This document shows, piece by piece, positions 44,063-45,606 of a stretch of 64,000 nt of DNA (positions are counted from its first letter, which is position 1; each line of letters starts with the position of its first letter). Origin of the DNA: Comamonas suwonensis. Lineage in GTDB: Bacteria; Pseudomonadota; Gammaproteobacteria; Burkholderiales; Burkholderiaceae_C. A program made the position numbers and the translations under genes. The stretch lies in assembly GCF_012844455.2 (NCBI RefSeq), contig NZ_JABBCQ020000011.1:1-64000 (forward strand). The letters are read 5' to 3'. Under the pieces are notes generated by a model. It saw only the letters and a program-made list of their open reading frames with translations. It was not told where the DNA came from and ran no database searches.

Positions 44063-44245
44063 GGTTGAGTGAGGTGCAGAGAAGGCGGCTGTCAAGTGCT
44101 GCGCAAGTATGGCTGTCTCAACCTGCCCGATTCATTTGCAGGACATGAATTGGCGATATTCTTGAGGGGTGTTTCAACGCACAAATCGATAGCTGGTTGT
44201 GCAGCATCTGTGAGCGCTTGAAGCCTGTTTGAGGATTAGTTCAAT

Positions 44246-45121
44246 ATGTCGATCTGCCTGGGCCTTGCGGCCAACAAACTTCATCACCAGACCGAGGATG
44301 CCGCGCTGTTTTCCTTGCTGCGCGCCTGTGAGGCGGGGATTCGTGAGCTCAAGCTCGGCTTTCACACCGTGGGCCGAACCTACGATGCCATCACGGCCGC
44401 CAGCATGCTGCAGGGCTATAAAGGTCTGGTGCGCTATCCCTATGGCCGCGAAGGCGGGCTGATGAAGCTGGTCGCCGAAGTGGTGGGCATGGAAGGCGAC
44501 GAGCGCGCGCTGGATGGTGCCATCTACCTGATGGACCCGGTCGATCCTTCCTCCATCTTCCCGGAAGCGCTGGCCATGAAGCGCCAGTGCGTGATTCACG
44601 GCAAGCCGTTTCTGTCGACTGTGGCATCCGCGCGTGACTGGATTGAGATGGAGCGCATTCACGCCGGTTTTGCGCGTGACCGCAATGCAGACCGTTTTTA
44701 TGACTATGAAAACCAGACGCTGGCGCTGATCGCCCACGATGCGATGAAGCCCACGATGATGGACTTTGCCGAGCGCAACTTTGACCTGCTCAGCCGCTAC
44801 CGCCGTCGCGTGGGCACGGGCACCACGGGCCAGAAGCTCAACGAGATGGCCTGGAGCAAGGGCTGGCCTACCGACAAGCCATGGGTGGACCGCTACAACA
44901 GCGGCCCGCTGGGGGGCGATGCACAGATTGCCGACCTGGTACTGGAAAAGCGCTGCCACCGTGCTATCTTTTTTGAAGACCCGCATGTGGCCCGCCAGCA
45001 CGAAGCCGACATTCAGCTGCTGGAGCGAGCCGTCACGACTGTCACGCATGATGCGGTGTGCAGCACGTCGCCCAAGGTGGCGCAGCGCTGGTGCGATGCG
45101 GCGGTACAGCGCGGCACCTGA
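44246..45121 (+). CDS. mgsA: Methylglyoxal synthase with an extra degenerate N-terminal MGS-like domain
   Basis: A 291-residue protein, about twice the usual methylglyoxal synthase length (about 150). Residues 158-291 carry the active enzyme motifs: ALIAHDAMK (His164, Asp165, Lys168), VGTGTTGQ (190-196), SGPLGGD with catalytic Asp225, and FFEDP (Asp245). These convert dihydroxyacetone phosphate to methylglyoxal and phosphate. Residues 1-135 align with the same fold: LGLAANK replaces ALIAHD, LGFHTVGRT replaces VGTGTTGQ, RYPYGREGG replaces RYNSGPLGG and AIYLMDP replaces AIFFEDP, so phosphate-binding and catalytic residues are lost. The half is best read as a decayed duplicate, perhaps regulatory. 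GAGGA lies ten bases before the ATG. Confidence 0.85.
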   Translation: MSICLGLAANKLHHQTEDAALFSLLRACEAGIRELKLGFHTVGRTYDAITAASMLQGYKGLVRYPYGREGGLMKLVAEVVGMEGDERALDGAIYLMDPVDPSSIFPEALAMKRQCVIHGKPFLSTVASARDWIEMERIHAGFARDRNADRFYDYENQTLALIAHDAMKPTMMDFAERNFDLLSRYRRRVGTGTTGQKLNEMAWSKGWPTDKPWVDRYNSGPLGGDAQIADLVLEKRCHRAIFFEDPHVARQHEADIQLLERAVTTVTHDAVCSTSPKVAQRWCDAAVQRGT

Positions 45122-45148: not shown

Positions 45149-45514
45149 TTACCTGGCGCGATAGCGCATCAGTTCGGCCTTCAGCCAGGCCGCGCTGGGC
45201 TCGGCCTCCTTGCCTGCGCAGCGCACCTGGTAGGGCTTATGGCTCATGCTGCTTTCGCTGGCGGCGCGGGCGATGAAGTCTTCAGACGTGAGCACCCAGC
45301 CCTTTTTGAGCAGGTAGTCGTATTTGCCGCGCAGGTGGTCTGCCGCCTTGGCGCTGTCATACCAGCTGCCATTGCGCTGAAATTCGCAGCCTGAATTTTT
45401 AAGGTGGCTGATCAAATGCTCAATCTCCTGCGTGGCCGCAGGTGTGGGCTTTTCGGCCAGAGCGGCGCTGGTGGCTGCGCACAGCAGCAGGGCAGTAATG
45501 AGGTGCTTCTTCAT
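45149..45514 (-). CDS. DUF5329 (YfeK-like) periplasmic protein
   Basis: A 121-residue protein from the ATG at 45514. A signal peptide (MKKHLITALLLCAATSAALA) is followed by the family pattern: IEHLISHLKNSGCEFQRNGSWYDSAKAADHLRGKYDYL, then FIARAASESSMSHKPYQVRCAGK. The two cysteines are conserved and probably form a disulfide. E. coli YfeK belongs here; its function is unknown. It converges with the methylglyoxal synthase gene, with 27 bp between the stops. Confidence 0.82.
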   Translation of the reverse strand: MKKHLITALLLCAATSAALAEKPTPAATQEIEHLISHLKNSGCEFQRNGSWYDSAKAADHLRGKYDYLLKKGWVLTSEDFIARAASESSMSHKPYQVRCAGKEAEPSAAWLKAELMRYRAR

Positions 45515-45541
45515 GGTGCGTTGATCGTACAAAGACAAAAG

Positions 45542-45566
45542 CCGCAGCGATGAACTGCGGTTTTTT
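45542..45566. terminator. Bidirectional terminator hairpin
   Basis: CCGCAG (45542-45547) pairs with CTGCGG (45555-45560), with six T on the plus strand and four T on the minus strand after the stem. On the minus strand it would end the cupin transcript before the DUF5329 gene. Confidence 0.65.
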
Positions 45567-45606
45567 GACAGCACTTGTGTGGGTCAGCAGAGGTTTTTTT
45601 AAACGT

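Follow-up and report, generated by a model that had tools for sequence, protein, structure and literature searches.

What does the extra half of a methylglyoxal synthase (MGS) of double length do? The question is raised by an open reading frame at 44246..45121 (+) of a Comamonas suwonensis window (the whole stretch of DNA analysed, 64,000 nucleotides), whose 291-residue product is about twice as long as single-domain MgsA (EC 4.2.3.3; E. coli 1b93, B. subtilis 6f2c, Thermus 2x8w/1wo8). Frame, coordinates and length, recomputed from the sequence, agree with a first-pass annotation of this locus. Methylglyoxal is toxic, and to our knowledge bacterial control of its production has been worked out only for single-domain MgsA. 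We report that the C-terminal half (C-half) carries the full MGS active-site set and is fused to an equally preserved, MGS-like N-terminal half (N-half) without the catalytic residues. This silent half likely regulates or supports the live half, whose expected product is toxic; at a little short of an even chance, we favour its being a metabolite-binding regulatory domain.

The C-half carries the full MGS active-site set

The whole protein matches the NCBIfam methylglyoxal synthase model PRK05234 at 96.1 bits, above the cut-off of 84, and TIGR00160 at 79.6 bits, under the cut-off of 146.9. The C-half (amino acids 157–291; 44714..45118; like all features of this gene, on the forward strand) reaches 86.1 bits with PRK05234, 76 bits with TIGR00160, under the same cut-off, and 16.7 bits with Pfam PF02142, under the cut-off of 24.1. 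It matches 11 MGS entries among PDB sequences (best E 1.6e-17), and an MGS fold is predicted for the C-half and for the whole protein. AlphaFold2 modelled the whole chain with a predicted local distance difference test score (pLDDT) of 90.7 and a predicted template modelling score (pTM) of 0.90, and the packing of the N-half on the C-half is predicted to be well defined.

Residue conservation was read from 233 aligned rows: 14 from an order search, 79 from a scan of 84,980 species, 20 from class, phylum and family searches, and 120 from a further set. Some species occur more than once (L002 and L033, for example, are the same protein); L045 (cut by a contig end), L165 and L167 (two-domain, missed by the pattern) and the divergent L116/L123 were left out, and an 80% identity cut reduces the set to 46 rows. 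PMC7843640 gives active-site roles in E. coli MGS to D71, H19, K23, T45–G49, S65 and H98. All are present in the C. suwonensis C-half, as had been claimed for it, and they are constant in 233/233 rows except at G195: H164, D165 and K168 (E. coli H19, D20 and K23; 44735..44749); the TGTTG phosphate loop at amino acids 191–195 (T45–G49; 44816..44830), with T191, T193 and T194 in every row and G195 in 231/233; SGPLGGD at 219–225 (44900..44920), with S219, G220, P221 and the catalytic D225 (D71) in every row; and DPHVARQHEAD at 245–255 (44978..45010), with H252 and D255 (H98 and D101) in every row and D245 in 230/233. Two features set the C-half apart from single-domain MgsA: a constant segment of its own, EDPHVARQHEADIQLLERA, and additional sequence ahead of SGPLGGD. 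Judged by its sequence, the C-half probably turns dihydroxyacetone phosphate into methylglyoxal.

The N-half is an MGS-like domain without the catalytic residues

The N-half (amino acids 1–141; 44246..44668) is separated from the C-half by a variable linker (142–156; 44669..44713; column entropy 1.5–3.0 bits). None of 12 family members gave a Pfam match to the N-half at E<=1, PF02142 included, and the N-half alone matches PRK05234 at E 0.035. A 12-row N-half profile, by contrast with these searches, reached MGS 1wo8 at E 0.0021 and, in searches of whole genomes, picked out single-domain MgsA (E 3.5e-8 to 1e-4), those fetched being confirmed on reading. Compared by hhalign with 12 single-domain MGS proteins, the profile aligned nearly end to end (96.2%, E 2.2e-9; 97.3% with four divergent rows added), and the N-half modelled alone is predicted to take the MGS fold. 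The likeness is beyond chance. By profile homology and fold the N-half thus belongs to the MGS-like superfamily, which bears out the first-pass claim of a second MGS-like domain; neither another fold nor an unrelated family, the outcomes that would have spoken against that claim, was found.

Its residues were placed in register by hhalign, anchored on the GG of SGPLGGD. Catalytic D71 is replaced by L72 and H98 by I, V, N, T, A or L (residue 104), both in 233/233 rows; S65 is replaced by Y66 in 218/233 and T47 by R44 in 229/233. These changes lie in VGRTYDA (42–48; 44369..44389), which stands in place of the TGTTG phosphate loop, in RYPYGREGGLM (63–73; 44432..44464), in place of SGPLGGD, and at residue 104. 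Retained are T48 (as T45, 232/233), G66 (as G67), both SGPLGGD glycines and D91 (as D97). The N-half therefore has neither the catalytic Asp71 nor the phosphate-binding set of an MGS enzyme and, set against single-domain MgsA, lacks H98 as well and most of the phosphate site, as had been read from the sequence at the outset. It has constant residues of its own, H13, D100, E107 and R113 in 233/233 rows and C115 in 232/233. H13 lies with N10 and R11 in the loop after strand 1 (9–18; 44270..44299; strand from DSSP), and the most constant stretch of the N-half is DPVDPSSIFPEALAMKRQ (96–114; 44531..44587), which EDPHVARQHEADIQLLERA of the C-half equals in constancy.

The N-half is conserved as strongly as the C-half

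Column entropy across the 233 rows averages 1.00 bits in the N-half against 0.96 bits in the C-half, and 12 diverse proteins have 50 invariant columns in each. The ratio of nonsynonymous to synonymous substitution rates (dN/dS) against 12 genes of Comamonas, Delftia, Acidovorax and Diaphorobacter, the C. suwonensis sequence being common to all 12 pairs, is 0.023–0.162 for the N-half and 0.038–0.235 for the C-half; in 11 of the 12 pairs the N-half has the lower value, and in one the two are equal. Purifying selection acts on the N-half no less strongly than on the C-half, which contradicts the description of the N-half as a decayed copy. Among the 46 non-redundant rows, its MGS active-site loops average 0.62 bits, the rest 1.26 and the opposite edge 1.66, and the C-half has the same pattern (0.35 bits in the active-site loops against 1.24). 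The loop bounds for this edge comparison were chosen after the invariant columns were known and the shuffle moved single residues, so that its result of 2 of 10000 is too favourable.

Origin of the two halves

In a tree of both halves, the N-halves form one group and the C-halves another (bootstrap/Shimodaira–Hasegawa-like approximate likelihood ratio test 100/100 and 99/100). The stem of the N-half group is very long, and close pairs within it match those within the C-half group. Inner branching agrees largely, not wholly: the C-half tree joins C. suwonensis and L003 to L007 and L008 (85/87, unstarred), and the N-half tree groups L004, L006, L007 and L008 (98/95). Because each half is a single group with shared close pairs and largely agreeing inner orders, the data fit a single joining event, after which the two halves were inherited together.

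How the second domain arose is a separate matter. Each half's profile matches single-domain MGS, and the two profiles match each other by hhalign at 2% (E 0.023); in two-domain genomes the N-half profile failed to pick up the gene's own C-half, although it did report single-domain MgsA elsewhere. Of the internal duplication first proposed, the two MGS-like domains stand, but a simple duplication is doubtful because the halves barely match. A recent duplication does not fit; a tandem duplication long ago, with fast change afterwards, would fit, and so would fusion with an MGS paralogue of older date.

Distribution of the two-domain form

The two-domain form, a widespread variant within a known enzyme family, goes under the annotation of ordinary MGS: the nearest named relatives, Comamonas proteins with 95–96% identity, bear the NCBI name 'methylglyoxal synthase'. 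One genome per species being taken, 382 loci encoding an N-half relative were found in the 84,980-species scan. The 80 of these that were retained represent Comamonas, Delftia, Acidovorax, Diaphorobacter, Lampropedia, Pseudoxanthomonas, Xanthomonas, Lysobacter, Rhodanobacter and others, and all 79 complete loci among them have the C-half; no stand-alone N-half was confirmed among the loci examined. Oxalobacteraceae form a further two-domain clade (Undibacterium, Herbaspirillum, Herminiimonas, Glaciimonas and Noviherbaspirillum, by source names). In a large proteobacterial group annotated plainly as MGS, one half of the protein is a strictly conserved pseudo-enzyme outside the coverage of Pfam families.

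The order search (300 genomes) gave 41 genomes with one match each, 14 two-domain and 27 C-half only; the 12 of these 27 that were read as proteins are single-domain MGS. The family search (250 genomes), made with the N-half profile, gave 58 with one match each: 21 strong, comprising 3 two-domain genes found previously and 18 more, and 37 weak, of which the nine fetched are all single-domain MGS. Six of 369 genomes matched in the class search, including genomes counted in other searches, and 10 of 299 in the phylum search, including genomes already counted and two single-domain matches. The source genome (4.72 Mb, 67 contigs) has one copy of the two-domain gene, and a search of it found no second MgsA match. 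No genome had both a two-domain gene and a second MgsA, against 1.3 (order) and 3.1 (family) expected by chance, which is modest evidence given the kinship of the genomes and the use of the N-half profile for the family search.

A divergent N-half subfamily (L162–L167, of the same family as the source, and P0169, P0182, P0192 and P0211) has an altered PYGREGG loop, and many of its members carry G or A in place of R44, with the C-half intact where complete; P0169 and P0192 may be without a C-half. A plasmid of Acidovorax sp. DW039 also encodes a two-domain MGS (NZ_AP029020.1, 168465–169322; 50.4% identity over 97% of the query), the sole one of 18 matching plasmid records to cover at least 80% of the query.

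Possible roles of the N-half

A regulatory role for the N-half, as suggested in the first-pass annotation, is plausible and is supported indirectly by distant relatives. The C-half would convert dihydroxyacetone phosphate to methylglyoxal; the altered pocket of the N-half may bind a metabolite, probably phosphorylated or another anionic sugar; and the ligand may change the activity of the C-half and so tune methylglyoxal output. We prefer metabolite binding, without giving it quite an even chance, because constant polar residues lie on the ligand edge of the N-half, because MGS-like domains are known as allosteric modules in carbamoyl-phosphate synthetase, and because one relative adds an effector-type domain. 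Like the carbamoyl-phosphate synthetase domain, the N-half is fused to a predicted active enzyme domain in one reading frame, but the two align at 8% identity and the N-half is closer to MGS. Several points weigh against this preference. The pocket is not constant, because R44 is G or A in divergent members (by eye, G at the aligned place in the distant relatives G500 and G933), and R68 also varies in divergent relatives; residues 97–115, the most constant stretch, may equally form an interface. The effector-type domain is a match to the last third of PF04198 (178–256 of 257) in one genome, is absent from the C. suwonensis protein and was not found in a search of the G500 tail; gene context in the source's own clade is uninformative on function. 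Binding by the N-half and its effect on activity are put forward as a proposal.

MGS is usually a hexamer, and the N-half might instead be a structural partner that replaces half of the subunits, for example in a trimer whose two-domain chains each contribute a live and a silent site, three of either kind in all, its conserved edge being an interface that would keep the C-half active. This possibility, which we rank behind metabolite binding, draws on the confidently predicted packing of the halves (pTM 0.90), the constant 97–115 segment with the equally constant C-half segment EDPHVARQHEADIQLLERA, and the variation of R44 and R68 in divergent members; conservation on the active-site edge rather than the opposite one (though the active-site edge might itself be the interface) and the many constant polar residues speak against it. 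A constant set on the active-site edge (H13, D100, E107, R113 and C115) provides candidates for a new catalytic activity, with methylglyoxal or a related phosphorylated compound, for example, as substrate, that would make the protein bifunctional. We consider this improbable: leucine takes the place of the catalytic Asp in every row, the N-half has no match to another enzyme family, and no confirmed stand-alone N-half was found. That the N-half is a spare internal copy in decay accords with the loss or change of its main catalytic residues, yet its entropy equals that of the C-half, its dN/dS is low, it has as many invariant columns, and it is kept in all 79 complete loci among the 80 retained of 382; unless selection acts on folding alone, conservation contradicts decay, which we regard as very improbable.

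We can also conceive, more doubtfully, of a widespread beta- and gammaproteobacterial class in which an MGS domain has turned metabolite receptor for its own MGS, with a live and a silent site per chain, half-and-half assembly, a sugar-binding module added in a distant relative, and gating not by phosphate alone. Methylglyoxal output would then be gated by metabolite sensing within the enzyme. Two-domain MGS offers a clean test case for a dead enzyme domain turned regulator.

Distant relatives and gene context

Two distant two-domain relatives, among 54 genomes of their order, have a long extra C-terminal tail: G933 (L143; 4646–6667, −) and G500 (L142; 8605–10233, +). The G933 tail matches PF04198, a SorC/CggR-type sugar-binding domain that is usually part of a transcription factor, at 37.5 bits (cut-off 27), and weakly matches the regulator chains 4r9n and 2gnp (E 0.03–0.04). 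Upstream of the G933 gene, in the same orientation, lie glpD, whose product forms dihydroxyacetone phosphate, and a DJ-1/PfpI gene; GlpR-like and glpK genes are nearby. The DJ-1/PfpI family takes its name from deglycases, proteases and a glyoxalase III, and the cut-off of the glyoxalase III model was not reached. The G500 gene lies downstream of edd and eda and starts within the stop codon of eda (overlap ATGA), with zwf divergent beside edd–eda and another DJ-1/PfpI gene ~6 kb away. We read these two contexts as tying methylglyoxal synthesis to triose-phosphate supply. The C. suwonensis genome has glyoxalase I, a PFK-family gene and a KDPG/KHG aldolase-family gene.

Among 23 loci compared, no neighbour recurred between clades so as to suggest a partner. 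In five genomes of family f4 (L131–L135), the two-domain gene follows iron–sulphur (isc) genes in 5/5 compared loci (iscS, iscU, hscB, hscA and fdx named in L131, iscS and iscA in L134; by similarity in the other three). The C. suwonensis gene is preceded by GAGGA, a possible ribosome-binding site 10 nucleotides before the ATG (44231..44235), and has as neighbours genes for an alpha/beta hydrolase, a cupin, a porin, a TctC-type receptor and, convergent downstream at 45149–45574 (−), a DUF5329 protein.
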